From: Melioribacteraceae bacterium | Lineage (GTDB): Bacteria; Bacteroidota; Ignavibacteria; Ignavibacteriales; Melioribacteraceae | DNA length: 12,700 nucleotides | Direction of reading: 5' to 3' | Assembly: GCA_026983755.1 (NCBI GenBank) | Contig: JALSTL010000095.1 | Span: 1 to 12,700, forward strand | In this document: positions 1-12,700 of the stretch, piece by piece | Layout: every line of letters begins with the position of its first letter | Numbering within the stretch: position 1 is the stretch's first letter | Position numbers and translations under genes: made by a program | The notes under the pieces: generated by a model | Database searches by the model: none | What the model was told of the DNA's origin: nothing | The model's input: the letters and a program-made list of their open reading frames with translations, nothing else

Positions 1-75
1 TATATTTTGCGCACTTAGTGTGATGTTTGCTATTAAAAAATATATAAGAAGAAAGACGAATGTTTTTGTTTTCAT
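1..75 (-). CDS. N-terminus of an exported protein (partial, runs off left edge)
   Basis: Reading leftward from an ATG at 73-75, 25 codons stay open to the window edge. They encode a typical Sec signal peptide: Met-Lys-Thr-Lys-Thr as the charged N-region, a hydrophobic core FVFLLIYFLIA, then a polar C-region ending Leu-Ser-Ala before Gln. That is a good signal peptidase I site, with cleavage expected after Ala at about residue 22. The Ser-Ala-Gln ending is characteristic of secreted Bacteroidota/Ignavibacteriota proteins. No clear Shine-Dalgarno sequence precedes the ATG. Nothing of the mature protein is visible, so its function cannot be given. It lies on the same strand as the upstream phosphatase gene but 242 bases beyond its stop, with a candidate promoter in between. 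Confidence 0.7.
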   Translation of the reverse strand, partial: MKTKTFVFLLIYFLIANITLSAQNI

Positions 76-162
76 TTTTGCACTGAACTATTTGTTAGAA
101 TTTGTAATATTTAAATATAACCAAATAGATACATAAATATTATTTTTTTGAAAGATTTTCGG

Positions 163-190
163 TATAATAACAAGTTTATTGTTATCATCA
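163..190 (-). promoter_or_regulatory. Candidate promoter with overlapping inverted repeat, upstream of exported-protein gene
   Basis: Read on the minus strand, TTGATG (4 of 6 to the -35 consensus) is followed after 16 bases by TATTAT (5 of 6 to the -10 consensus). The spacer and -10 region are covered by a 7-bp perfect inverted repeat, ATAACAA-N5-TTGTTAT (167-185), which could be an operator. In DNA this rich in A and T such matches arise by chance fairly often, and the start codon is about 90 bases away, so this is only a candidate. Confidence 0.25.
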
Positions 191-260
191 ACTTTTATTT
201 TTTGCAATAGCAATAAAGTGTTGTTTTCCCTTCGAATTGGAAGATAGGATGGAGTTAATT

Positions 261-281
261 ATTTGTAACCGTTTTACAAAT
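261..281 (-). terminator. Weak hairpin downstream of the signalling operon
   Basis: A perfect 8-bp inverted repeat, ATTTGTAA-N5-TTACAAAT, lies 36 bases after the phosphatase stop codon. The stem is almost all A-T, and in the direction of transcription it is followed by AATTAACTCC rather than a T-run, so it is not a convincing intrinsic terminator. It may be a 3'-end stabilising hairpin, an operator-like palindrome, or chance. Confidence 0.25.
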
Positions 282-317
282 GGCAATCTTTTAGGGTTGT
301 TTTTTAGGCTTAAAAAT

Positions 318-1466
318 TTATTCCGCTTTGATTCCAATAATACTTATATCATCCTCAAATTTATTTTTTGTTGCATCTGTAAATTCGAAAATTATATTTT
401 GAAGTAATTCTTCTTCGTCGGATTTGTTTTCTATAATTTCTTTAAGTCTTTGTTCGCCAAAGAATTCACCGTCTGTACAGCGGGTTTCCGGTATTCCGTC
501 GGTAATAATATAAAACTCGTCACCGGATTTAATAGGGATTTCAATATCTTCATAATCTCCGGTTTCTTTAAAACCAATTAATATTCCGTTGGATTTAATC
601 GATGAGGTAGAATCGGACTTGTGAATTAATGGAAGGTCTCCGGCGCCGCTGTATTTTAGTATATTTTTTTGTCGGTTTATGGTTAAAACGGAAAGCGTTA
701 TAAATACATCGGAAATTCTTTCGTCTCTATAAACAGCGTTGTTTACTTTATTAAGAATATCTCCGGGAGAAAGTTCTTTGTCTTCGGAAAGCACCATTCT
801 TATTGCACTTCTTACATAGCCTGCGTAAGCAACGGCAAAATACCAAGCTCCCCATTTTTTACCCATAATATCGCCAAGTACAATAACAAGGTTATTTTCA
901 TCTGCTTTAAAATAATCTATAAAATCTCCACCGGGTATATTTTGGAAAGGAACATGCCAATGTTTTATAGTAAAACCATCGAACGCAGGAGCAAAATCCG
1001 GAACAACTTTGGTTCCCATATTATCGGCAGCTTTGTGTACTTCTTCAACGGCTTTTTCTCTTTCTTTTTGTGAAGATTTAAGTAGAGCATTTATTTTTGC
1101 AAGAACAATTTTAGAACCGGAAGTTTTAACTATGTAATCTTCAATATTTAAATCGTATCCGTTTAATATATCGCTTTCGTCTCCTTTGGCAGAAAGAAAA
1201 ACAAACGGAACCATTTTAAGGTTTTCGTCTTCCAAAAGCATTTTACGAAATTCATATCCGTCAACTTCGGGCATCATTATATCGCTAACAATAATATCCG
1301 GTTTAAAAGATTTAGCCAACAAATATCCTTCAAGTCCGTTTTCCGCCCATTCATAGGTGAATCCTGCTTTTTTTAAAGTATATAAAAACAGTTTGGCTAC
1401 CGATTCTTCGTCTTCAACAAGAAGAATTTTGTATGTATTGGTTTTTGTTTCTGTCAATGTATCCAC
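318..1466 (-). CDS. Response regulator fused to PP2C (RsbU/SpoIIE-type) serine phosphatase
   Basis: 382 residues, cytosolic. Residues 12-130 form a receiver: acidic pair Glu18/Asp19, phospho-acceptor Asp62 in SDIMMP, Ser92 and Lys114 (followed by Thr rather than the usual Pro). A short helical linker (130-150) leads to a PP2C domain of the SpoIIE/RsbU type, about 155-382. Metal-binding signatures are present: GGDFIDYF (Asp181), GDIMGKKWGAW (Asp199), TDGIPE (Asp323) and a C-terminal Asp372-Asp373 before IS. The family dephosphorylates phospho-Ser/Thr on STAS anti-sigma-factor antagonists, and the receiver probably gates it. It is last in an operon with the NtrC-type regulator (50-base gap) and the histidine kinase, the probable phosphodonor. 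The start is a GTG at 1464-1466 without an obvious Shine-Dalgarno sequence; an in-frame TAA at 1470-1472 blocks any longer start. Family assignment is firm; the target is inferred. Confidence 0.93.
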   Translation of the reverse strand: MDTLTETKTNTYKILLVEDEESVAKLFLYTLKKAGFTYEWAENGLEGYLLAKSFKPDIIVSDIMMPEVDGYEFRKMLLEDENLKMVPFVFLSAKGDESDILNGYDLNIEDYIVKTSGSKIVLAKINALLKSSQKEREKAVEEVHKAADNMGTKVVPDFAPAFDGFTIKHWHVPFQNIPGGDFIDYFKADENNLVIVLGDIMGKKWGAWYFAVAYAGYVRSAIRMVLSEDKELSPGDILNKVNNAVYRDERISDVFITLSVLTINRQKNILKYSGAGDLPLIHKSDSTSSIKSNGILIGFKETGDYEDIEIPIKSGDEFYIITDGIPETRCTDGEFFGEQRLKEIIENKSDEEELLQNIIFEFTDATKNKFEDDISIIGIKAE

Positions 1467-1469
1467 AAA

Positions 1470-1493
1470 TTAATTTAATTCTTTACTTTCCAT
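1470..1493 (-). other. Seven-codon in-frame leader ORF just before the phosphatase gene
   Basis: An ATG at 1491-1493 opens Met-Glu-Ser-Lys-Glu-Leu-Asn and ends at TAA 1470-1472, one codon before the GTG used for the phosphatase and in the same frame. It may permit termination-reinitiation onto the GTG. Alternatively, if the TAA were a sequencing error, the phosphatase would simply start at this ATG. No Shine-Dalgarno sequence precedes it. Confidence 0.2.
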
Positions 1494-1516
1494 AATCGAA
1501 TAAAATTTTATAGGAT

Positions 1517-2896
1517 TTAGTTTCGTTTCGATTTAATTTCGTATTTGTCCATTAATCTGTATAACGTTGCTCTGCCTACATTTAATTTTTTAGAAGCATC
1601 AACAATATTACCGTTGGTCATTTTTAATGCATGTTTTATTGCTTCGGCTTTAAGTTTTTCAAACGGAATAATAGGAGAATCTTCTGCAAATAACGGTCCG
1701 TGCATATCAAGATTAGATTCACCGTTTGCCGATTGAATTTGAGGCGGTAAAATATCCACATCAATTTTGTCGTCGTCTGTAAGAATAATACAGCGTTCAA
1801 TTGTATTTTCAAGTTCGCGAACATTTCCCGGCCAATCATAGTCGTACAATAATTTTAGAGCGGCTTTAGTAATGTGTTTAATTTCTTTATCGTTTTTTTT
1901 GTTAAATTCGGCAAGAAAATGGTTTATTAAAACCACTATATCTCCTCGTCTTTCTCTTAAAGGAGGAACGGATATAGGAAAGGTATTAAGCCTGTAGTAA
2001 AGGTCTTCTCTAAATTGTTTGTTCGCAACGGCTTCTTTTAGATTTACATTGGTAGCAGAAATAATTCTTACGTCGCTTTTAATTGTTTCGGTTCCACCAA
2101 CTCGTTCAAATTCTTTTTGTTGAATAACTCTAAGAATTTTTGCCTGTAAGGACATTTCCATATCGCCGATTTCGTCTAAGAAAATAGTTCCGCCGTTTGC
2201 AAGTTCAAACTTCCCTATTTTTCTTTGATGTGCACCGGTAAACGAGCCTCGTTCGTGTCCGAATAATTCACTTTCCAATAATTCTCTTGGTATAGAAGCA
2301 GAGTTAACTACAACAAAAGGTTCGTTTTTACGTATTCCGTTGTAATGGATAGCCCTTGCTATAAGTTCTTTCCCTGTACCGCTTTCTCCGCTGATTAAAA
2401 CGGTTATATCATTATTAAGTACTTTTGTAACCATTTTAAAAACCGTTTGCATTTTTTTATCTGCCGATACAATATTGTTAAAGTTATATTCGTTTTGAAG
2501 ATTTGTATTTAATTCATCAACGCGTCTTTCAAGATCGTAGCTTCTAATTGCATTTTTTATTGCCGGTTGCAGTCTGTTTTTATCTATTGGTTTTGGGAAA
2601 TAATCATAAGCTCCTTCTCTAATACATTCAAGGGCTACGTCAATATTACTTTGTGCCGAAAGCATGATAATAGGTAAATGTTTATTGCGTTTTTTAATTC
2701 GCTTAAGAATATCAACACCGCTTATATCCGGCAACATAATATCAAGAAGTATAATATCCGGATTGTCGTAGATGTTTTCCAAAAGTTCCGTTCCGTTTGA
2801 AAACGTACGAACGTTATATCCCCATTCTTTAGCCCAATGAGTAATTAGTTTTAATATCGAGGGTTCATCGTCAACAATAAAAATTGTTTTTTCCAA
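1517..2896 (-). CDS. NtrC-family sigma-54-dependent response regulator
   Basis: 459 residues, the usual length for an NtrC-type activator. The receiver (1-120) has Asp9/Asp10, phospho-acceptor Asp52 in LLDIMLP, Ser80 and Lys102-Pro. The central AAA+ domain (about 142-375) has Walker A GESGTGKE (170-177), the sigma-54-contact loop as GSFTGA (217-222, with Ser for the first Ala but the FT pair kept), Walker B GTIFLDE (236-242) and the REDLYYRLN segment (296-304). A Fis-type helix-turn-helix closes the protein (about 430-452, ending in TLYRLMDKY). It should remodel RNA polymerase-sigma-54 at -24/-12 promoters once phosphorylated. The start is TTG at 2894-2896, supported by a GGAG Shine-Dalgarno at 2904-2907 with a 7-base spacer and by alignment of the receiver to the very N-terminus. 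It begins 18 bases after the kinase stop, so the two genes are co-transcribed. Confidence 0.95.
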   Translation of the reverse strand: MEKTIFIVDDEPSILKLITHWAKEWGYNVRTFSNGTELLENIYDNPDIILLDIMLPDISGVDILKRIKKRNKHLPIIMLSAQSNIDVALECIREGAYDYFPKPIDKNRLQPAIKNAIRSYDLERRVDELNTNLQNEYNFNNIVSADKKMQTVFKMVTKVLNNDITVLISGESGTGKELIARAIHYNGIRKNEPFVVVNSASIPRELLESELFGHERGSFTGAHQRKIGKFELANGGTIFLDEIGDMEMSLQAKILRVIQQKEFERVGGTETIKSDVRIISATNVNLKEAVANKQFREDLYYRLNTFPISVPPLRERRGDIVVLINHFLAEFNKKNDKEIKHITKAALKLLYDYDWPGNVRELENTIERCIILTDDDKIDVDILPPQIQSANGESNLDMHGPLFAEDSPIIPFEKLKAEAIKHALKMTNGNIVDASKKLNVGRATLYRLMDKYEIKSKRN

Positions 2897-2907
2897 TGTC
2901 TTTCTCC
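2897..2907 (-). promoter_or_regulatory. Shine-Dalgarno supporting the TTG start of the NtrC-type gene
   Basis: Read on the minus strand, GGAGAAA is placed with a 7-base gap from the end of GGAG to TTG 2894-2896. No ATG or GTG is available at this position, and the receiver's first beta strand starts at codon 4, so this site decides the start codon. Confidence 0.7.
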
Positions 2908-2914
2908 GTGTTTG

Positions 2915-4075
2915 TTATTCAAACTTATATTTAGGTAGTTTTATAATAAAGCTGGTACCTTTATTTATTTTGCTTTTTACTCGTATCAATCCTTTGTGTA
3001 AATCTATTATTTGTTTAACCGCAAGCAAACTAAAGCCCGTGCCCGGAAGTTTATATCCTTTTTGATTTGCTTTGGAAAATTTATCGAACAAAAAAGGAAT
3101 ATGTTCTTCAGGTATTCCTATTCCCGTATCACTAATTACAATTTCAATTTCTTTTAAGAATTCTTTTACCGTTAAAGTTATTCTACCGTTTGTTTGCGTA
3201 AATTTAATTGCATTTGAGATTAGATAATTAATAGCTTTGCTTAATCTTTTTTCATCTGCATAAATGATAACTTCCGATTCCGGAAGGTTGCCGGTAAATG
3301 TAATTTTTTTTGTTTCAAATTTTTTCTCAAAATGCTTGATAATGTTTTTTAGCAAACTAATTATATTAACCGAATTTTTGGTTAGTTGTTTTTTATTGTG
3401 TTCTAATTCCGAAAAATCGAGAACGTCATTAATTAGTTTTGCCAATCTCTTGCTTTCGGTTAAAATTATTTCGTTAAATTCCTTTACTTTTTTTATTGTT
3501 AATTTTTTATCTTCGGCAATTGTTTCCGAAAATCCTATTATAGATGCCAAAGGTGTTCTAAGTTCGTGTGAAACATTAGATATAAATTCGTTTTTCAATC
3601 TGTTCAATTCATTAAGTATATTTATTTGTTCTTCCGCTCTATCCCTTTCAATTGAGTTTAGTCTGTAAGCTTCCGTTAGTTTGGCATTCAGTTCTTCTAT
3701 TTTTTTTTGATTGTTTGTTTTTGTTGTTATGTTTGTTCCAACCCCAATTATTTCATACGGTTTTTTATTTTCAATTATCGGATGCATATTAAAAGAAAAA
3801 TCGAATTCTTTTCCAAACGACGATACTAGTTGTAAGTTTACCGTTACATCGCTTTGGGTTGTTAATATTTTTTGAAATGCATTTATCGATGTTTCTTTTG
3901 AATTGTTACTTACAATTTCGAAAAAATGCTTTCCTTTTATTTCACTCGGTTCTTTATTTAAAATTTTACATCCGTAATTATTTACAAAGCGTATTATTCC
4001 TTGTTCATTTAGTATAAAAATAAACTCGTTTGTAATTTCCGCAAAAATCTTAAAATAATTTTTTTCTGCTACCAA
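2915..4075 (-). CDS. Soluble PAS-domain sensor histidine kinase
   Basis: 386 residues with no transmembrane segment, so a cytosolic sensor. One PAS domain (about 5-118) is followed by a coiled-coil linker (121-160), a HisKA domain with phospho-acceptor His170 in SNVSHELRTP, and an HATPase_c domain (about 240-383). N-box Asn288 (SNAIKF) and G1 DTGIGIP (316-322) are intact. The G2 motif reads GTGFSLL (345-351), where GTGLGL is usual, so the third glycine is replaced by Ser349. It is first in the operon with the NtrC-type regulator and the receiver-PP2C protein, both likely phosphate acceptors. The start is uncertain: the reading frame is open back to about 4124, but only TTG at 4073-4075 is a reasonable initiator, and it has no clear Shine-Dalgarno sequence. 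The PAS domain requires a start at or upstream of this point. Confidence 0.93.
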   Translation of the reverse strand: MVAEKNYFKIFAEITNEFIFILNEQGIIRFVNNYGCKILNKEPSEIKGKHFFEIVSNNSKETSINAFQKILTTQSDVTVNLQLVSSFGKEFDFSFNMHPIIENKKPYEIIGVGTNITTKTNNQKKIEELNAKLTEAYRLNSIERDRAEEQINILNELNRLKNEFISNVSHELRTPLASIIGFSETIAEDKKLTIKKVKEFNEIILTESKRLAKLINDVLDFSELEHNKKQLTKNSVNIISLLKNIIKHFEKKFETKKITFTGNLPESEVIIYADEKRLSKAINYLISNAIKFTQTNGRITLTVKEFLKEIEIVISDTGIGIPEEHIPFLFDKFSKANQKGYKLPGTGFSLLAVKQIIDLHKGLIRVKSKINKGTSFIIKLPKYKFE

Positions 4076-4152
4076 ATTATTTGTTTCAATTTGACTGATA
4101 ATAATTTTACCCTTTGGGTTTTTTTATTAATGTTAATAATTGATTTTTTTAT

Positions 4153-4180
4153 GAAACATAGTATAGGGAAAATTATCAAA
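4153..4180 (-). promoter_or_regulatory. Candidate promoter of the kinase operon
   Basis: Read on the minus strand, TTTG is followed after 16 bases by TATGTTTC. This resembles the Bacteroidota-type -33 TTTG / -7 TAnnTTTG promoter with one mismatch and a slightly short spacer. A sigma-70-like -10 element TATACT (4160-4165) overlaps it. A start near 4145 would give a leader of about 70 bases. Placement between the giant gene's terminator and the kinase start makes a promoter necessary here; the exact boxes are a guess. Confidence 0.35.
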
Positions 4181-4359
4181 TTAATACATAAAATATGTCT
4201 AATATTTGTACAATCGACAAAAAACCTTAAAAATTAAATAGAATTACTAGAAAAAAAATAGAGAAGTCAATAAAAAAATGAGAAATGTAGAAATTTAATA
4301 CATTTTACGGTAGAAATAATCAGTGAATTTTTTGCGGATAATTAAATTTTTAAAGAAAA

Positions 4360-4418
4360 GAGAGTTGTTGCATATAATCCAAATTTTTTCGTAACGGTTT
4401 TTATATTCAACAACTCTC
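4360..4418 (-). terminator. Intrinsic terminator of the giant gene
   Basis: Thirteen bases after the giant gene's TAA, a perfect 11-bp inverted repeat (GAGAGTTGTTG at 4360-4370 against CAACAACTCTC at 4408-4418) encloses 37 bases. One mismatch inward, a further 6 bp (ATATAA at 4372-4377 with TTATAT at 4401-4406) extend the stem. In the direction of transcription the stem is followed at once by TTTTCTTT. The long stem plus T-run is a good Rho-independent terminator, though with an unusually large loop. It means the kinase operon needs its own promoter. Confidence 0.8.
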
Positions 4419-4431
4419 CGTACAATTATTA

Positions 4432-7400
4432 TTAATCGGCGTAGCTTTGTATAGCGTCTTGTAGTGTGTCAAAAAGTTTGAACACTTTATCCATGCGTGT
4501 TATGTAGAACATTGAAGACTCTGTGTTATCGCCCCAAACTATTCTAAGATCGCCGCTTTTAGCCATTGATTTCTTTAACGAACTTACCATTACGCCCAAT
4601 ACCGTAGAATCAACAAATTCACATTCGGTAAGGTCTATAACTAATTTGGGAGTGGTTTCTTTCTCTATAAGTTCGGTTAAATATTTTTTGAATTCGGATG
4701 CAATTTCCATAGTTGCTCTTGGTAAACTTACTGTTATAACGTCAACATTTCCATATTGTAAATGAGAAAATTTTGAGTTACCGGCCGGTGAATCTGAATC
4801 TTGTTCGGGTTGAATTTCATTTGGTAATATTTGTTGAGAATAATCATTGTTATTTACTTCTTCGGTATCAAACTCCATATCGTTTATGTTTTGATGTTGA
4901 TCCGCTTCGTTGCTAATAGCTGCTTCTTGGTTAAATATATTTTCGTGATTGTTTTCTTCCTCTTCTGGAGATTCCGGCAAATCATAAAACGGATTCGGCA
5001 TTGTTTCCGCTTCGCTTTGCTCGTTATCTTCAACAAAATGATCTTCGGTTAATTTGTCGTTTTCGATTTCCATCTCGGGATGTAAACTATCAATATTGTC
5101 GTTTTCTTCAATCTGACTTTCCGGCGCTACAAACTCACTTGTTGCTTGATTGTCCAGAGCTTCTTTCATATTCAAATCAAGTTCTGCAATTCGAACGGCT
5201 TGGTTTTCTATAATTTCATTTAGTTTTTCTTCGTTGTAAGTTTTTTCTTCAAGTTTTTCATTTAAAGCATCGAGTTTTTTTGTTAGAATATCAATTTTAG
5301 ATTCTTTATCAATAATCTCGGACTTAAACGATTCTTTAATTTCGTTGAGTTTGTCTATTTGATTTTTATAATCTTCAACAAGCTCTTTCGTTTTTATGTA
5401 TTCAATTTCCTTCTCGGTTTTTTGCAGTTTAATATTAGAAAGATTTTCGCTTTGCTTTTCTATTATTTGATTCTTTTCTTCAATAATTGCTTCGTAGTTT
5501 TCCAATTCTTTTAATTTTTCTTCAAGTTTGGAAATTTTTTCTTCATATTCAACAGCGGCTTCTTTGGAAATTTGTTCTTCGTTATTTGTCAAGCCTTTAA
5601 CGGTTTCTTGAAAGTTGACAAGTTCAATATCTTTTCTTTCTAATTCGCCTATATATTCGGATTTAAGATTTTCGGCTTCTTCAAGCTTATTTTCCAATTC
5701 TCTGATTTTTTCTTCGAGAGCAATCCGGACTTGAGCGTGTTCTTCGTGTTCCGAAGCCGTTGATGATAATTTATCTTCCAACTCTTCTATTAGTTCTCTG
5801 TTTTGGCTAAGCTTGGTTCGATAATCTTCTGCTTCTCTTTGCAGTTCTTCAATTTGATTTTTTAACCGTTCGGATACCTCTTGATTATTATTAATTTCTT
5901 CCAATTTGGCTTTATAGTTTTCCGATTTTTCTTTTAGAGAATTATTTTCTTCGGAAAGAAGTTTATTTTCTTCAGCCACCACCGAAATTTCTAATGTTAA
6001 GCTTTGAATTTGTTCTTCGGCATCTTTAAGTTTTTCTTCGTAATCCAATCGGCTGTTGTGATTTTTTTCTACCTCGATTTTTAGTTTTTCGTGTTCTTCT
6101 GTTTTTTCTTTAAGTGCCTTGTTTTTTGTTTCCAGTTCTTCATTGATACTGTTTAATTTATGAGAGTTTTCATTTATTTGTTGTTGCAATTGTTTAATGG
6201 TATTGTTAAGTTCCCACTCTTTATTTAACAGTTCGTCTTCTCTATCTTGTAAAAACTTAACCATTTGAACTTGTTTGGATAATGTTTCGTCTTTTTCTTT
6301 CAGTACATTATTAAGATTACTTAATTCCCCATTTAATTCTTCAATTTTTGAATTTTTTTCTTTAAGTTCATTTTCTTTTTCTAAAGAAGAAGCTCTAAAA
6401 GATTCGAATTTTTCAACGGCCGAATTAAATTCGTTATTAAGTTTTTCAAAAGCGTTTGTAGTTTTTTGAAGTTTTTGAACAACCTCTTCTTTTTCTTTTT
6501 CTAATTTCGCAATTTGCGTAGATTTTTGATTTAACTCTTCAGTTTTTTCTTGGTCTTTATGGTTTAATTGCTCTTGTAATTGATTTATGTTTTCTTTGTG
6601 ATTTGCAATGGTGTTTTGCAATTCGGAAATAATGTTTGTTTTTTCCAATAAAGCTTGTTCGGAAATAGAAAGGTTCGATTTCAATTCTTGATTTAGATTG
6701 TCGATTCTATTGTTTTTTTCAGAAAGTTCTTGTTTTATTCTGGTTAATTCGTTAGATATTTCGTTATAATCAGCTTGATTTTCCGTTAATAACTCGGCTA
6801 GCCTGGCTTTTTCTTCGTTTAATTCGGAAATTTTTTGACTAAGGTTTTTAACAATTTCTTGTTGCTTGCCTTGTCCGGCTTCGTAATCGTTTATTATACG
6901 TTTTAAAGATATTATTTCTTCATTTAGGTTAGAAATTTTTAATTCTTTGTCTTCAAATGTTCTTTTGATTTCGTCTAATTGTTTGGTTCGTTCTTGTACT
7001 TCTTCTTTTGCCTCGTTGTATTTCTTTACATGTTCGTCCAGTTCAAGTTTATAATTATCTTTAATTCCCTGTAGCTCGTTTATTTCAGAGTGCAGTTCGT
7101 TAATAGTAATCGTAAGCTTTTCTATCTTTTCATGTAATTCGGCTTCACCTTCTTTTGTTCTGTTGAGTTCTTTTTCTTTTTGTATTATTTTGTTATTTAA
7201 TTCGGAAATTTCCACTTGTTGTTTTTCTAAATCAGACCTAAGGTCTGCAATAGTTGTTTCGGAATTATTTAATTCTTGAGTTAGACCGGTAATTCTTTCT
7301 GAAAGTGTTTGAATTTCATCTTCTTTATTGCTCTTTTCTTTAGCAAGATAGTTGTTTGTTTCGTTTGCCTCTAATAATTGAGTATTAAGTGATTCTATTT

Positions 7401-10400
7401 TTTCGCTTAGTGAACCGATGTTTAATTCTTTGTTATTGATTTCTTCATTTAATTCTGAAATTTTATTTTGTAGTTCTTTTAACTCAAGATATACTTTTTC
7501 TTGTTCAACTGATTTTTGTTTCAGTTGATTAGATAGGTTTTGTTCCCTTTGTGTAATTTCTTGTAAATTGGTTTTTAATGATTCTATTTCTTCCGATTTT
7601 TCCTCATATTTTGTTTTTATCTCTTCCGTGTGTTTACCAAGACTATCAATTTCTTCTTTAAGCGTAGTTATTTCATCGTTTTGTGTAGTTATTATTTCCG
7701 TTAAGTTGTTTTTTTGGTTTTTTAAATCGGCTATCATTAGTTCGTATTCGTTAACCTTGGCATTGCTTTTGTTTATTTCGTTTGCATGATTGTCTATTTT
7801 TGTTTCGAGATCTCTAAGTTGGTTTGTTAAATTGTTGATTTCCTCTGATTTATCTAACAATAAAGTTTCTTTTTCGTTTATAATATTTTCATAGTTTTTA
7901 ATTTTGTTTTCCCACTCTGTCTTTTCTTTGTTATAATTTTCCGCTTCTTGGCTTATAGCTGTATATTGTTCTTTAAGATCAAGGTATTGTGTGTTTAATA
8001 TTTCGTAATCTTTAAGTTTGGTTTGGATAGACTCTTCTTTTTCTTCTATCATATTTCTAAGTTCGGTTTCGTTTTCCCGAAGTTGTTTTATGGTTTCTTC
8101 GGTTTTTATTAATGCGTTCTTCTTTTCATCAAGAAGTTTATCTATGTTATATATTTTTGAATTTAAAGAAGATATTACATCCGTTTTGTTCTCTAATTCG
8201 CTTTCCAGGTGATTATTGTTGCTTTTTAGATTTTTTATTTCGTTCTTATATCGTTCTATTTCTTCTGTTTTGGTTTTGTTTTTGTTTGTAAGATGTTGAA
8301 TATAGTTTTGTAATTCTTTTTCTTTTTCTTGTTGATCCGATAAAACCATTTCCAAATCACTTATTTTTTGATCCAGTTCTAAAATTTTTAAACTTTGAGT
8401 TACTATAATTTCACTTTTTTCAGAATCAGCTTTTTTATATTCTGCTTTTTCTTCCGTAATTTTCTTTATTGCCAAGTCTTGATTTTCAACAATTTCATTT
8501 TTTTGAACCAAGAAATAGTTTAATTCTTCAATTTGTTTTTCAGCTTCCGAATATTTTTGATAAAGTTCTTCTTGATTTTCTTTAGACAACCTTAATTGTT
8601 CTTTTAAAGAATCTTTGGCTTCAATTTCCTTTGTAAGCTTTACGTTTGTTTGAGCAAGTTCCGTAAAAATCTGATTGTTTTCTTGTTTTAAATTGTGAAT
8701 TTGTTCCGACCTTCCGGAAAGTTCTTCTTCGTAAGAGTTTAATTTTTCTTCTAGTGTAGTTATATCGTTAGATTTTTCATTTAATAAATGTGTAAGTTCG
8801 TGTTCTTTTTCTTTATGTTGTTTTTCCAACTCTGCCAATTCTTCAATTCTTGAAGATTGCGATGAAATAATTGTGTCCTTTTCTTCTACAGACTTAATTA
8901 AATCTTCTATTCTATTTTTTAATGATGACATTTCAATATTTAATGTCTCAATAGTTTCGGTATTTTCGTTGTACTTGGATTCAAATACTTTCGCACTTTG
9001 CGTAGCATTTTCGGCCGCTGTTTTCAGTTCTACTATTTGGCTATTTAATAAGTCTATTTGATTGACGTGTTCAAGGTTTGCGTTTTTCAAATTTTCTTCG
9101 TTTTCTTCAAATTTTGATATTTTATTTTGTAATTCTTCAATTAATTCAGATTTTAATTTGTCTGCATTTATCAGAGTTTCTTCTGCCTTTACGTGCTCTT
9201 CTATTTTTTGCGTAAGTTCCGTAATAAGTTGTTCTTTTGTTTCTTTTTCATTAAAAGTAGTTTTATATTTGTTTTCCAAGTCTTTATATTTTGTTTCAAG
9301 TTCATCAAAATGTTTTATTTGTTCGGAAAGCTCACTAATAATTTTATCTTTCTCTTCCAAAGCTTGTTTTGATTCAACATTAAGATTGTATTCAAGTTCT
9401 TTTATTTTTTCTTTTAGTCGATTTACTTCCGCCTCGGAATTTTTTAACATTTCACTATATTCGTTTTCCGCTACTTTGTAATTGCTTTCCAGTTCTTTAT
9501 AATAATTTAATTGATCCGAAATTTCTTTTATTTCACTTTCCTTTTCCATTAATATTGATTTGGATTCTATTTCTAATTTTTGTTCAAGAGTTTGAATTTT
9601 TTCATTAAGATTTTTGATGGTTTCTTTTGCTGCTTGCAGCTTTTGAGAAAAATCTTCGTTAGATTGCAACAAATTATTATTTCGGTCTTTTTCAATGTTC
9701 AGTTCTTTTTCCAGTCTATTAATTTCGTTTTCATCAATATTATGGCTATTGGCTTGAAAAGATGTATCTAAAGCAACCAAGTTCTCTTCAAGTTCTTTTA
9801 TCCGGTTTTTTTGCCCCTCAACCGTTTGTTTATAATCGTTTTCCAAATTTAACAATCTTGATAGTTGCTCCTGTTGGGTTTCAACCATATTGTTGAGTTG
9901 TTTGTTAGAATTTTGATACTCCTCTATTCTATTATATAGGTCGGTAATTTGTTGTTCTTTATTTTTAAGAAATTCAGAATATTTTGCAATTTTTTCTTCA
10001 AGCGAAGAAATAACCGATTCCTTTTTTTTAAGCTCATTTAAGGCTTTCAATTCGGGTTCTTTTTCGTCATTATTTAGTTCAAATATTGGAGCCGAGGTGT
10101 TTCTATTTTCTTGGGCTTTATTGCGGATAGAATCCAAAGCAATATTTATTTGATTTTTATCATCTTCTACGGAATTTTTAAGGTTATCGGCAATTGGAGT
10201 AAAGTTTAATAATAAATAATCAATGTTTTCTTTGGAAAGAACAGCTAATTTGCTATTTTTAAGCGCAATTGCAGTTGAATTTCTTTCGGAGTTTGTAAAA
10301 AATTCGTCATGACCAAAAAATTCATTTTTAGTCAACACTTTTGTAGTGGTTTTTAAAAAACTTTGTTTTTGCATTAGGCTAATTTCGCCTTCTAAAATTA

Positions 10401-10554
10401 AGTATATAGAGTCGGATAAATCACCGTTTTTAAAAATCACTTCCCCTTCGGTTAAATCAATGGTTTTTAGGTTTAATTCTTCTAGTGTAACTTCTGAAAT
10501 GTTTGAGTTAATAAATAAATTGTTTTTTAAAGCTAAATTGGTTTCGTTTTGCAT
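4432..10554 (-). CDS. Giant cNMP-binding-like / coiled-coil / STAS protein
   Basis: 2040 residues, no signal peptide or membrane segment. Residues about 20-120 are a CRP-type beta-roll (LTEGEVIFKNGD, then IYLILEGEISLM); the phosphate-binding cassette reads FFGHDEFF...ERNSTA (79-95), keeping Arg91 but with His82 where Glu usually contacts the ribose. From about 165 to 1803 everything is heptad-like coiled coil, rich in E, K, N, L, Q and I, with no proline between Pro167 and Pro1811. Residues 1804-1930 form an acidic linker. Residues about 1934-2038 are a STAS domain with strand LVIDLTECEFVDS and Ser1983 at the position phosphorylated in SpoIIAA/RsbV. ATG 10552-10554 has a good Shine-Dalgarno (GAGGA, 10561-10565). 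The likely role is a long scaffold or rod linking a sensor to a partner-switch module, which is inferred; I know of no characterised protein of this form. Domain calls are firm, function is unknown. Confidence 0.9.
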   Translation of the reverse strand: MQNETNLALKNNLFINSNISEVTLEELNLKTIDLTEGEVIFKNGDLSDSIYLILEGEISLMQKQSFLKTTTKVLTKNEFFGHDEFFTNSERNSTAIALKNSKLAVLSKENIDYLLLNFTPIADNLKNSVEDDKNQINIALDSIRNKAQENRNTSAPIFELNNDEKEPELKALNELKKKESVISSLEEKIAKYSEFLKNKEQQITDLYNRIEEYQNSNKQLNNMVETQQEQLSRLLNLENDYKQTVEGQKNRIKELEENLVALDTSFQANSHNIDENEINRLEKELNIEKDRNNNLLQSNEDFSQKLQAAKETIKNLNEKIQTLEQKLEIESKSILMEKESEIKEISDQLNYYKELESNYKVAENEYSEMLKNSEAEVNRLKEKIKELEYNLNVESKQALEEKDKIISELSEQIKHFDELETKYKDLENKYKTTFNEKETKEQLITELTQKIEEHVKAEETLINADKLKSELIEELQNKISKFEENEENLKNANLEHVNQIDLLNSQIVELKTAAENATQSAKVFESKYNENTETIETLNIEMSSLKNRIEDLIKSVEEKDTIISSQSSRIEELAELEKQHKEKEHELTHLLNEKSNDITTLEEKLNSYEEELSGRSEQIHNLKQENNQIFTELAQTNVKLTKEIEAKDSLKEQLRLSKENQEELYQKYSEAEKQIEELNYFLVQKNEIVENQDLAIKKITEEKAEYKKADSEKSEIIVTQSLKILELDQKISDLEMVLSDQQEKEKELQNYIQHLTNKNKTKTEEIERYKNEIKNLKSNNNHLESELENKTDVISSLNSKIYNIDKLLDEKKNALIKTEETIKQLRENETELRNMIEEKEESIQTKLKDYEILNTQYLDLKEQYTAISQEAENYNKEKTEWENKIKNYENIINEKETLLLDKSEEINNLTNQLRDLETKIDNHANEINKSNAKVNEYELMIADLKNQKNNLTEIITTQNDEITTLKEEIDSLGKHTEEIKTKYEEKSEEIESLKTNLQEITQREQNLSNQLKQKSVEQEKVYLELKELQNKISELNEEINNKELNIGSLSEKIESLNTQLLEANETNNYLAKEKSNKEDEIQTLSERITGLTQELNNSETTIADLRSDLEKQQVEISELNNKIIQKEKELNRTKEGEAELHEKIEKLTITINELHSEINELQGIKDNYKLELDEHVKKYNEAKEEVQERTKQLDEIKRTFEDKELKISNLNEEIISLKRIINDYEAGQGKQQEIVKNLSQKISELNEEKARLAELLTENQADYNEISNELTRIKQELSEKNNRIDNLNQELKSNLSISEQALLEKTNIISELQNTIANHKENINQLQEQLNHKDQEKTEELNQKSTQIAKLEKEKEEVVQKLQKTTNAFEKLNNEFNSAVEKFESFRASSLEKENELKEKNSKIEELNGELSNLNNVLKEKDETLSKQVQMVKFLQDREDELLNKEWELNNTIKQLQQQINENSHKLNSINEELETKNKALKEKTEEHEKLKIEVEKNHNSRLDYEEKLKDAEEQIQSLTLEISVVAEENKLLSEENNSLKEKSENYKAKLEEINNNQEVSERLKNQIEELQREAEDYRTKLSQNRELIEELEDKLSSTASEHEEHAQVRIALEEKIRELENKLEEAENLKSEYIGELERKDIELVNFQETVKGLTNNEEQISKEAAVEYEEKISKLEEKLKELENYEAIIEEKNQIIEKQSENLSNIKLQKTEKEIEYIKTKELVEDYKNQIDKLNEIKESFKSEIIDKESKIDILTKKLDALNEKLEEKTYNEEKLNEIIENQAVRIAELDLNMKEALDNQATSEFVAPESQIEENDNIDSLHPEMEIENDKLTEDHFVEDNEQSEAETMPNPFYDLPESPEEEENNHENIFNQEAAISNEADQHQNINDMEFDTEEVNNNDYSQQILPNEIQPEQDSDSPAGNSKFSHLQYGNVDVITVSLPRATMEIASEFKKYLTELIEKETTPKLVIDLTECEFVDSTVLGVMVSSLKKSMAKSGDLRIVWGDNTESSMFYITRMDKVFKLFDTLQDAIQSYAD
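4435..4755 (-). other. STAS domain of the giant protein (residues about 1934-2040)
   Basis: The core reads beta strand LVIDLTECEFVDS, helix TVLGVMVSSLKKSMAKSG, strand DLRIVWGDN, then a last helix starting at DKVFKLFDTLQDAI. This is the anti-sigma-factor-antagonist fold. Ser1983 (codon 4606-4608) directly follows conserved Asp1982, matching Ser58 of Bacillus SpoIIAA. The usual next residues Ser-Gly are Thr-Val. Cys1978 here appears to be the only cysteine of the whole protein. Confidence 0.85.
4756..5145 (-). other. Acidic linker of the giant protein (residues about 1804-1933)
   Basis: A proline-containing, low-complexity stretch between coil and STAS. By my count it has about 37 Asp/Glu against two Lys and no Arg, with many Asn and Gln and no heptad pattern. 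It is probably disordered and would let the STAS domain move freely at the end of the rod. Confidence 0.7.
9253..9603 (-). repeat. Internal duplication in the coiled coil (64-residue period)
   Basis: Residues 318-370 (codons 9445-9603) and 382-434 (codons 9253-9411) align over 53 residues without gaps, with 24 identities by hand count. The conserved skeleton includes EKI, L-E, L, ESK, EK, I, E, S, Q, ELE, YK, EN and Y. The offset is 64 residues, nine heptads plus one. This is more specific than generic coiled-coil similarity and suggests growth by internal duplication. Confidence 0.6.
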
Positions 10555-10560
10555 TTTTGG

Positions 10561-10565
10561 TCCTC
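10561..10565 (-). promoter_or_regulatory. Shine-Dalgarno of the giant gene
   Basis: GAGGA on the minus strand with a 6-base spacer to ATG 10552-10554. This fixes the start, and the cNMP-binding-like domain begins shortly after. Confidence 0.75.
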
Positions 10566-10592
10566 ATGACGTTTTTTTACACAACATTTATT

Positions 10593-10611
10593 TTGATTTT
10601 TTATAAATCAA
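10593..10611. repeat. Inverted repeat in the giant gene's leader/promoter
   Basis: Perfect 7-bp arms TTGATTT and AAATCAA with a 5-base centre, overlapping the -12 element and expected start point of the candidate sigma-54 promoter. It could be an operator or a leader hairpin. In AT-rich DNA an arm of this length can also occur by chance. Confidence 0.3.
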
Positions 10612-10626
10612 CAAAGACTGTGCCGA
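10610..10626 (-). promoter_or_regulatory. Candidate sigma-54 (-24/-12) promoter of the giant gene
   Basis: Read on the minus strand, TCGGCACAGTCTTTGTT matches the sigma-54 consensus TTGGCACG-N4-TTGCW with correct spacing between the GG and the -12 element. Mismatches are C for the second T, A for the final G of the -24 block, and T for C in the -12 dinucleotide. A start near 10599 would give a leader of about 45 bases before a good ribosome site. The neighbouring operon encodes a sigma-54 activator, which makes the match more interesting, but the GT for GC at -12 is a real weakness. Confidence 0.3.
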
Positions 10627-10836
10627 AATGTTTTATAATCGGTAGAATTTACACTTTGAATTTTCCAATAATGAGATTATTTATAAAACCGAAGGAGATT
10701 CCTAGACAAAGATTTGGAAAACGAATAATCAAGTGTCAAAACAGTTGTGATAAACGTAAAAATACTTGTTTTAAAATGAAACACAACTTTGGAGAAGTTT
10801 CAAAAATATCATTTTGAGAAAAGTACAATTATGTGT

Positions 10837-10848
10837 TAATGGCCATTA
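10837..10848. repeat. 12-bp perfect palindrome in the divergent region
   Basis: TAATGGCCATTA has a GGCC centre that stands out in DNA this poor in G and C. It lies about 60 bases upstream of the decarboxylase -7 box and about 240 bases upstream of the giant gene's presumed start point, both workable positions for a regulator site. No regulator can be assigned. Confidence 0.3.
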
Positions 10849-10906
10849 TTGGTCATGTGGGCATTAAATATGGAGAAATTTTTAATAAAAAGATAAAAGA
10901 ATTACT

Positions 10907-10914
10907 TAAATTTG
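10907..10914 (+). promoter_or_regulatory. Candidate -7 box of the decarboxylase promoter
   Basis: TAAATTTG fits the Bacteroidota TAnnTTTG element exactly. A T-run TTTT at 10880-10883, 23 bases upstream, is a poor -33 TTTG. A start near 10920 would give a leader of about 35 bases. Confidence 0.35.
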
Positions 10915-10954
10915 GGTAAAATACAAATAATTTAAATTAACTAGAGAATGTATT

Positions 10955-12391
10955 ATGAAAAAAAATTTTGATATGCCGACGGAAGAATTTAAAAAATATG
11001 GACATGAATTAATCGATTGGATAGCGGATTATTTGAAAAATATTGACAAGTATCCGGTACTTTCAAAAGTTTCGCCAAATTCAATAATAAATAATTTACC
11101 TAAGAAACCGCCGGAAATACAAGAAGAGATGTCCAATATTATAAATGATTTTAAAAAAATTATTATTCCTGGTATAACACATTGGAATCATCCGGGTTTT
11201 ATGGCATATTTTAATTCAACAGCTTCTTCACCGGGAATATTGGGAGAATTATTAAGTGCCGCACTGAATATTAATGGAATGTTATGGAAAACCTCACCGG
11301 CTTCAACTGAACTGGAGATAGTTACCATAAATTGGATTAGACAAATGCTTAATCTTCCTTCAAATTTTTTTGGTGTTATTTATGATCTGGCATCAATTAG
11401 TTCCTTACATGCAATTGCAACGGCGAGAGAGGCGGCAAAAGAATTATACAATAATTACGATATTAAAAAATTAAGGATATACGGGTCCGAAGAAGCACAT
11501 TCCTCAATTGAAAAAGGTATAAAAACATTAGGTCTGGAAAGTTCGGCATTTGTTAAAATAAAAGTAGATAAAAATTTTTCAATGAAAAGCAACGACCTTA
11601 AAAAGGAAATAATTAAAGATTTTAAAAACGGGTTACAACCATTTTGTGTTGTTGGAACATTTGGAACAACTTCAACTGCGAGTATAGACCCAATTAAAAA
11701 TATTTCTAAAATATGCAAAGAATATAACCTCTGGTTTCATATAGATGCTGCTTACGGAGGGAGTGCCGCTATAATTAAAGATATAAGGTCTTATTTAGAT
11801 GGTGTTGAATATGCACAGTCGATTGTAATTAATCCACATAAGTGGATGTTTGTTCCAATAGATTTAAGTATTTTATTCACCACAAAGGCAGATTTACTAA
11901 AAAGGGCTTTCTCAATTGTACCGCATTATTTAAAAACGAATGAGGATAATGAAGTAATAAATTTTATGGATTACGGAATACAACTGGGAAGGAGATTTCG
12001 TTCATTGAAGTTATGGTTTGTAATTAGATATTTCGGTTCAAAAGGATTGCAAAATATAATAGGATACCATATCCAATTAGCCAAGATTTTTGCGAAACAT
12101 ATTGATAATGACAAAATTTTTATAAGATTGGCTCCTGTTTATTTTAGTACGGTTACTTTTAGAGCGATTCCGTCAACGATTATAGATGAAAAAGAACTTG
12201 ACAACTTTAATAAAAATCTAATTGAGGAAGTAAATAATACTGGAAAAATTTTTCTGAGCCATACAAAAGTAAATAACATATTCGCCATAAGATTGGTAAT
12301 TTCCGGAATTAGGACTACACAAAAAGAAATGGAAAACGCTTGGAAATTATTAAAGAAAAAATGTAAAATATTGGAAAAAGAATTTTTATAA
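10955..12391 (+). CDS. PLP-dependent group II (aromatic-L-amino-acid type) decarboxylase
   Basis: 478 residues, close to the usual 470-490 of the aromatic-L-amino-acid decarboxylase family, which removes the alpha-carboxylate of an amino acid to give an amine. PLP-binding and catalytic residues are all visible: HWNHPGFMAYF (76-86), DLASISS (144-150) for the cofactor phosphate, stacking His182 in EEAHSSIEK, GTFGTTSTAS (234-243), Asp264 in HIDAAYGG for the pyridine nitrogen, Schiff-base Lys296 in NPHKW, and loop Tyr325 in PHYLKT, the position needed for decarboxylation rather than oxidative chemistry. The LGRRFRSLKLWF signature (344-355) is intact. The substrate (Phe, Tyr, Trp or another amino acid) cannot be read from sequence. 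ATG 10955 has only a weak AGAGAA Shine-Dalgarno (10943-10948). It is divergent from the signalling genes, with no evident functional tie. Confidence 0.93.
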   Translation: MKKNFDMPTEEFKKYGHELIDWIADYLKNIDKYPVLSKVSPNSIINNLPKKPPEIQEEMSNIINDFKKIIIPGITHWNHPGFMAYFNSTASSPGILGELLSAALNINGMLWKTSPASTELEIVTINWIRQMLNLPSNFFGVIYDLASISSLHAIATAREAAKELYNNYDIKKLRIYGSEEAHSSIEKGIKTLGLESSAFVKIKVDKNFSMKSNDLKKEIIKDFKNGLQPFCVVGTFGTTSTASIDPIKNISKICKEYNLWFHIDAAYGGSAAIIKDIRSYLDGVEYAQSIVINPHKWMFVPIDLSILFTTKADLLKRAFSIVPHYLKTNEDNEVINFMDYGIQLGRRFRSLKLWFVIRYFGSKGLQNIIGYHIQLAKIFAKHIDNDKIFIRLAPVYFSTVTFRAIPSTIIDEKELDNFNKNLIEEVNNTGKIFLSHTKVNNIFAIRLVISGIRTTQKEMENAWKLLKKKCKILEKEFL

Positions 12392-12700
12392 AGTTAAAAA
12401 GATTGTATAACCATTGATGAAAAATCTTTTCAAAAAAAGGTAAAGTAAAATATTATTCGATTCAAAAAATTACAAAACATTGTTTTTCCAAAAAACAAAT
12501 TTAGTAGTTTATTAAATAAGACGAAGAATATACGCTAAAAACGTAATGAAAATGCATGTTCATTTACTCAATTTTTTATATAAAAAAACGATTGAAGATA
12601 TTACGCAATATACGTAATCCGATTTTGGTTTGTATTTTGGTATAAAAATAACTTTACAGTAAAAAAAATTAAAGATTATTTCAAAATGCTGTGTTAATGT
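12392..12700. other. Non-coding right end of the window
   Basis: 309 AT-rich bases after the decarboxylase. Just past the stop, AAAAGATT (12397-12404) can pair with AATCTTTT (12423-12430) across an 18-base loop, but no T-run follows, so it is at best a weak terminator. ATTACG-N7-CGTAAT (12600-12618) is a small inverted repeat. I see no convincing gene. Confidence 0.5.
12397..12430 (+). terminator. Weak hairpin after the decarboxylase
   Basis: 8-bp stem AAAAGATT/AATCTTTT with an 18-base loop, starting 5 bases after the stop codon. The stem is A-T rich; the arm itself ends in TTTT but is followed by CAAAAAAA, so termination efficiency would be doubtful. Confidence 0.3.

Follow-up and report, generated by a model that had tools for sequence, protein, structure and literature searches.

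A CNB-like domain and an RsbV-like STAS domain joined by a very long coiled coil in Melioribacteraceae: a possible rod-shaped signalling scaffold

Partner switching (RsbU-V-W, SpoIIE-AA-AB) is usually pictured as an interplay of diffusing small proteins. In two published accounts, an RsbW kinase binds and phosphorylates a STAS protein and a SpoIIE phosphatase resets the switch (PMC8256260), the STAS proteins being dephosphorylated by PPM phosphatases (PMC11418112, PMC8256260) and the phosphorylated residues being given as S58 of SpoIIAA and S56 of RsbV (PMC11418112). The subject of the present analysis is a 2040-residue protein (the giant protein) encoded on the minus strand of a 12,700-nucleotide stretch of Melioribacteraceae bacterium DNA (the window; assembly GCA_026983755.1, contig JALSTL010000095.1, positions 1 to 12,700), in which a cyclic-nucleotide-binding-like (CNB-like) domain and a STAS domain lie at the two ends of a coiled coil. 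It resembles RsbV and SpoIIAA in the STAS fold, in the D-S-T/S loop, in an adjacent SpoIIE-type phosphatase and in the presence of RsbW-like proteins in the genomes of its relatives; however, RsbV and SpoIIAA are single-domain proteins, whereas this STAS domain is the tip of a 2040-residue rod.

Other described proteins share single traits with it. RsbR proteins likewise place a sensor-like domain at the N-terminus and a STAS domain at the C-terminus, but the giant protein has a 1660-residue coil, with no structure matches named RsbR or RsbS and no stressosome genes among the main open reading frames (ORFs) of the window. FrzS and AglZ combine a receiver-like domain with a long coil, and AglZ is localised in the cell; neither is known to carry an output domain at the distal coil end, and their domain is receiver-like where that of the giant protein is CNB-like. 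Myxococcus FrzS is also reported to have a signalling-domain fold devoid of the phosphorylation site and to be localised in the cell. Crescentin, FilP and Scy are comparable as cytoplasmic coiled-coil proteins, although we know of no CNB or STAS ends in them, and the match of the giant protein to the crescentin rod profile is far below the cut-off (see below). SulP transporters have STAS and CNB domains in one protein; they differ in domain order, in their membrane part and in the absence of a coil. Finally, CNB-GAF-histidine kinases of the same bacteria have a related N-terminal domain, the same leading segment and a variable spacer, their output being GAF plus histidine kinase instead of STAS. 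In the open-licence literature, judged by titles and the opening lines of abstracts, no paper on a CNB-coil-STAS layout was found; the parts are known, the assembly appears undescribed, and by resemblance it is a new variant of RsbV-like signalling. We read the giant protein as a long rod-shaped signalling scaffold, that is a dimeric rod with a phospho-switchable STAS end, a function whose chances we consider evenly balanced. Its features are the following.

4432..10554, minus strand: 2040-residue giant protein with CNB-like domain, coiled coil, acidic linker and STAS domain (ORF, Pfam, periodicity)
10153..10554, minus strand: CNB (cNMP-binding-like) domain with its leading segment, residues 1-134 (PF00027, family profile, AlphaFold2 (AF2))
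10072..10089, minus strand: short motif PIFELN, residues 156-161, between CNB domain and coil (pattern conservation)
5170..10149, minus strand: heptad coiled coil, about residues 136-1795, Ile-rich at a and Leu-rich at d (periodicity)
4780..5169, minus strand: acidic linker containing Asn and Pro, residues 1796-1925, probably disordered (composition)
4435..4779, minus strand: C-terminal STAS domain, residues 1926-2040 (PF01740, family profile, AF2)
4603..4611, minus strand: D1982-S1983-T1984, phospho-acceptor loop position (alignment of fused STAS domains)

Both end domains proposed in the initial annotation are recovered by profiles above their cut-offs. At the C-terminus, PF01740 matches residues 1952-2034 (E 1.4e-10, 41.3 bits, cut-off 22.6) and a family STAS profile gives 157 bits against the window protein; the AF2 model (mean pLDDT 89.3) shows a STAS-like order of alpha and beta elements. 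The triplet D-S-T, which from the alignment we take to be the SpoIIAA/RsbV acceptor loop, is found without exception in the 16 fused STAS domains compared and also in the four coil-less proteins described below. A STAS profile built from 24 sequences retrieved ten PDB sequences (E ≤ 0.01), with TM1081, TM1442 and SpoIIAA at the top and RsbV and RsfB also included; none of the ten is named RsbR or RsbS. Judged by its sequence, the STAS end is RsbV/SpoIIAA-like and not RsbR-like; we write RsbV-like rather than RsbV because antagonists of the RsbV/SpoIIAA type are stand-alone single domains and this one is part of a 2040-residue protein. Protein database searches restricted to the STAS end were uninformative: with the window protein none of 62 candidates reached E ≤ 0.01, its own protein and relatives being missed as well, and with the L147 protein none of 108 reached E ≤ 1e-6, known relatives again being missed (G and L numbers denote genomes and loci, respectively).

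At the N-terminus, PF00027 matches residues 34-115 (E 2.5e-14, 53.5 bits, cut-off 27.5) and the family N-domain profile covers residues 1-134 with 147 bits; the AF2 model of residues 1-170 (mean pLDDT 79.0) has a strand-rich core with block pLDDT values of 88-97 over residues 31-110. Canonical CNB domains carry both the Glu and the Arg of the FGE...R phosphate-binding cassette. Here the Arg is kept in 16 of 16 sequences, whereas F-G is followed by Tyr, Gln or His in every one of the 16; because the glutamate is always replaced, nucleotide binding is doubtful, so that of the cyclic-nucleotide-binding-like domain described in the initial annotation the domain stands and the ligand is in doubt. 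In the related histidine kinases, 9 of 12 aligned sequences keep the cassette Glu. Behind the domain lies a short motif, [PS]I[FY][DE][ILV][NDE] at residues 156-163, defined post hoc from sequences already inspected, which is present in six of six long-coil members and in none of ten other members (first 260 residues searched); the long-coil members have no second copy in 10,691 further residues. The frame starts with ATG in the ORF list, and this start is supported because the opening MQN...LALKSN recurs in three of the four other complete long homologues, that of G378 being different; the N-terminal opening of a contig-cut piece from G407 is MANQFNLALKSN.

The middle of the protein, with bounds set by us at residues 136-1795 (about 1660 residues), has a single, dominant hydrophobic period of 3.50 (power 85.1, the best of 200 residue shuffles reaching 9.2); at 0.1485 nm per residue its extended length is about 246 nm, in agreement with the roughly 240 nm estimated at the outset. 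Over residues 387-1332 (945 residues) the register drifts by less than one residue, local slips being seen at residues ~250-380 and ~1260-1345 and smaller ones at ~1470-1640; residues 131-1800 contain two prolines, at 156 and 167. When the register is set locally, Ile makes up 35% and Leu 25% of position a, and Leu 40% of position d, the other four complete long members having 30-35% Ile at a and 31-43% Leu at d; parallel dimers typically combine Ile at a and Leu at d. The 3.50 period is shared by all five complete long members (power 50-159), with longest register-constant stretches of 693-1631 residues. The coil is not continuous with the STAS domain: the acidic stretch at residues 1796-1925, with nine prolines, forms a probably disordered linker between them, and similar acidic stretches likewise precede the STAS domain in G378, G282, G398 and G363. 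Myosin is staggered by a long-range charge period; a myosin-like charge period of 28 or 28/3 residues, suggested by self-identity lags, was rejected for the window, which does not exceed heptad-preserving shuffles, and in G282 the charge period is marginal, with a power of 11.6 at 9.85 compared with 9.5 for the highest of 60 such shuffles.

The coils of other members are built differently. In the medium members (L147, L149-L156; see below) the 3.50 line is not dominant; in several of them hydrophobicity peaks near 6.25 and 3.48 residues and charge near 7.85, which would fit a superperiod of about 31 residues. The coil of G208 (L148:3061-6678, 1205 residues) has self-identity lags of 33 and 66 (0.321, 0.316), a 33-residue repeat and a period of 3.68, as found in hendecad coils, which suggests an 11-residue rather than a heptad organisation.

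Homologues were sought in 79 genomes of one family, including G004 (record L004, Melioribacteraceae bacterium isolate GH35), with each end as a separate query, and the loci were then read. Homologues keeping both ends were thus found and their coil lengths compared, as the initial annotation had proposed: at least 19 frames, the window included, carry both domains, with 19-2255 residues between them. Four frames of 258, 260, 310 and 335 residues, from three genomes, are coil-less (19-91 residues between domains); nine medium frames of 692-925 residues have 440-669; the 1205-residue frame of G208 has 956; and five complete long frames of 1769, 2040, 2214, 2389 and 2504 residues have 1518, 1791, 1965, 2139 and 2255, respectively. 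Complete two-ended genes with a long helical middle therefore occur in at least 14 other genomes of the family, and two further giants are cut by contig ends (G407, in two pieces on two contigs, and G004, C-terminal part only). In G200 (L188:893-2203) a free STAS gene is followed by the 310-residue coil-less CNB-STAS protein, a natural minimal version.

When the search was extended to samples of the class (391 genomes) and of the phylum (395), the strongest N-domain matches again fell in this family. Fourteen N-domain frames lacking STAS, a minority of the matches listed, were followed to their end (seven outside the family, L174-L180, and seven inside, L158-L161 and L181-L183; L157, cut short, was left out): all 14 have a histidine-kinase-like end by eye, and the three checked with Pfam are CNB-GAF-HATPase. 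These kinases (L158-L161, L174-L183) share the N-terminal domain of the giant protein, their CNB-to-GAF spacer ranging from about 300 to 1170 residues in the three checked, and many of the loci have, by eye, an apparent miaA neighbour. A tree of 65 STAS domains over 115 columns places the five complete long members and the nine medium ones together with the G407 and G004 pieces in a single group, with support (94/81) slightly below the star limit of the tool, few columns and several long branches (coil-less, G208). G208 falls outside it, beside a 487-residue STAS protein of G375 that has no CNB match in Pfam; since the coil-less proteins occupy two other places in the tree, the CNB-STAS pairing may have arisen more than once.

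In the long members conservation is higher at the ends than in the coil. Compared in 150-residue blocks, G398 and G363 are 80% identical in the first block, 71% in the last (STAS) and 28-40% in the coil; for the window and G378 the values are 46% (first), 75% (STAS end) and 22-39% (coil). In G398 (L143:4259-4773 and 7511-8146) two in-frame tandem duplications, 82% identical over 300 nt and 85% over 179 nt, are each spaced by 336 nt, that is 112 residues or 16 heptads, and the self-identity of 0.256 at lag 112 exceeds that of all 100 heptad-block shuffles (0.160 at most); such 16-heptad duplications are one route to lengthening a coil with its register intact. A recent duplication in the window coil is not supported (best lag 0.155, block-shuffle maximum 0.158; DNA repeats of at most 72% over ~50-60 nt), and the G282 gene yielded no DNA repeat of 60 nt or more. 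A common repeat as family-wide growth unit was discarded, the lags above block shuffles differing between members (56 and 28 in G282, 140 and 56 in G363, 112 in G398, 33 in G208, 31 in G414, 32 in G399); G071 and G396 are barely above shuffles (lags 187 and 192), and the remaining medium members are not above them at lags 31-33. Gap lengths divisible by seven (12 of 33 gaps for G398/G363, 7 of 56 for window/G378) were set aside as evidence because alignment itself tends to produce whole-heptad gaps and no excess is seen in the second pair. Since coil periods, lags and lengths all differ, the constant of the family, as far as sequences tell, is a helical rod joining the same two ends, and not one coil sequence or length.

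In the window, the giant gene (10554-4432) is followed in transcription order on the minus strand by three signalling genes, and a divergent gene lies on its other side.

2915..4075, minus strand: histidine kinase (PAS-HisKA-HATPase), downstream of the giant gene with a gap of 356 nt (ORF, Pfam)
1517..2896, minus strand: NtrC-type response regulator with receiver, sigma-54 AAA+ and Fis HTH domains (ORF, Pfam)
318..1466, minus strand: receiver-SpoIIE (PP2C/PPM) phosphatase, which may act on the STAS domain (PF00072, PF07228)
10955-12391, plus strand: pyridoxal-dependent (PLP-dependent) decarboxylase, divergent (PF00282, E 4.1e-97)

In L198 a gene whose start resembles that of the decarboxylase lies about 10 kb from the N-terminal piece of the giant. 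No terminator-like site was seen in the 356-nt gap, the promoter and terminator scan itself being little above shuffles, and tRNA and Rfam scans of the window gave no match. The receiver-SpoIIE gene has a match in 95 of the 391 genomes of the class sample and in 66 of the 79 of the family; among the 120 matches listed, relatives with a named organism belong to Ignavibacteriae, Ignavibacteriaceae, Ignavibacteriales and Melioribacteraceae, and a tblastn search of plasmids gave less than 60% identity throughout the 5000 records retained. Its best-scoring 41 loci, from 41 genomes (L081-L121), were inspected for a STAS gene directly upstream: G407 being uninformative, a free STAS gene is found in 34 of 40 (L113 and L114 being counted from the longer loci L130 and L131) and is absent in six, G378, G363, G342, G282, G398 and G216, as it is in the window. 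The window and the four genomes with another complete long giant (G378, G363, G282, G398) thus all lack it, and G071 and G360, with medium giants, retain it. These data make the STAS domain of the giant protein a candidate replacement substrate for the receiver-SpoIIE phosphatase, the free STAS gene having presumably been lost from the cluster. Free-standing RsbW-like HATPase_c_2 frames are present in all eight family genomes searched. In G378 (L184:4141-9334) a run comprising an ECF-type sigma factor, a SpoIIE-ended protein, a STAS protein, an RsbW-like protein and a second SpoIIE-ended protein, of which the RsbW-like and STAS members are supported by matches and the rest were read by eye, is a possible canonical partner-switch locus.

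On this basis a mechanism can be proposed. Two chains would probably pair in parallel through the heptad coil, as the Ile at a and Leu at d suggest, giving a rod of about 250 nm; the CNB-like domain, together with the short conserved motif, would sense at or anchor one end, and the other would present the RsbV/SpoIIAA-type STAS domain, with its D-S-T acceptor loop intact, on a flexible acidic tether. By analogy with the family, an RsbW-like kinase would phosphorylate the STAS end, and its dephosphorylation would fall to a SpoIIE phosphatase, for which the receiver-SpoIIE protein next to it, driven by the histidine kinase, is the likeliest candidate, the phosphorylation state altering the partners to which this end binds. 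The rod would position or multiply STAS ends in the cell, its length drifting between species. A more specific version is tentative and in our estimate rather doubtful: a partner-switch phospho-acceptor tipping a parallel coiled-coil rod of 200-320 nm with a ligand-blind CNB-like anchor, successor to the free STAS of the receiver-SpoIIE cluster, displayed far from the anchor or in arrays, and with a length made elastic by 16-heptad duplications.

Several observations weigh against the scaffold so described. The giant gene adjoins the phosphatase cluster in the window and G378 only (gaps of 356 and 492 nt) and is located elsewhere in G282, G398, G363 and G407; G342 and G216 lack the free STAS gene and yet show no two-ended giant among the matches listed (both are draft genomes), so that its absence tracks the giant imperfectly; for the STAS kinase there are RsbW-like candidates, none assigned as partner; NCBIfam TIGR00377 scores 51.8, slightly below its cut-off of 53.45; and the charge of the window coil shows no period between 8 and 60, the top power of 6.3 equalling the mean of 60 heptad-preserving shuffles (6.3). 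Against a drift in length, the four medium members G227, G285, G396 and G397 have a near-constant length and a coil about as conserved as the CNB end (three pairs among them: coil 41-77%, first block 56-69%, STAS end 76-93% identity). The absence of a long-range charge period in the window also counts against a mainly structural role, in which the protein would be an intermediate-filament-like or bundling cytoskeletal element with ends making protein contacts without phospho-switching. The length and uniformity of the heptad coil and the loss of the CNB pocket glutamate in 16 of 16 sequences speak for such a role, as does a match to the crescentin rod PF19220 in G282 (E 2e-14, 53.9 bits) and, weakly, in the window (E 0.066, 12.7 bits), but both scores lie below the cut-off of 100 bits; moreover, D-S-T, superfluous for a passive contact, is kept in 16 of 16 fused domains and two members adjoin the phosphatase cluster, and we regard this explanation as unlikely.

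Distance measuring, also raised in the initial annotation, fares worse. A coil setting the STAS output at a fixed distance from an anchored N-terminus would agree with a rod of about 250 nm, with conserved ends, with a register held over 945 residues and with the 639-646 residues, within seven of one another, between the domains of the same four medium members. With the exception of these, length is not conserved: it covers 19-2255 residues among the 19 homologues, 1518-2255 among the five complete long members and 440-956 among the ten others with a long middle; G398 and G363, 80% identical at the N end, differ by 290 residues, and the G398 coil has been lengthened by duplication. Spacer coils, by contrast, are reported to be conserved in length (PMC5082667). 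A variable-length rod is thus indicated, a precise ruler being improbable, and the lack of length conservation favours scaffold or display over ruler. The RsbR logic of the initial annotation, that is a stressosome-type stress sensor with a CNB-like sensor and the coil as an oversized linker, is in keeping with the order of sensor and STAS and with the coil-less CNB-STAS proteins of 258-335 residues in three genomes; it is not supported by the structures matched at E ≤ 0.01, which include SpoIIAA/RsbV types and none named RsbR or RsbS, or by the five main ORFs of the window, none of which is RsbS- or RsbT-like, and is very improbable. An assembly artefact, or the joining of adjacent genes in this one case, was also considered. 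Relatives often have a free STAS gene, and CNB-histidine kinases form a separate family in them, so that the proviso that the ends might normally be separate genes is borne out in half; the fused form is nevertheless complete in 14 other genomes, as 14 long two-ended genes, and the G378 giant (1769 residues) sits at the same place in the same gene cluster. The giant is therefore neither an artefact nor private to this genome, and that explanation is refuted, its residual probability being negligible.

The giant protein thus looks like a real signalling scaffold and not a sequencing accident. If the scaffold reading is true, partner switching becomes spatial: a STAS switch tied to a rod of about 250 nm would make spatial control of partner switching testable, and the natural length series of the family (almost no coil, 440-956 and 1518-2255 residues) offers a ready-made experiment on rod length.

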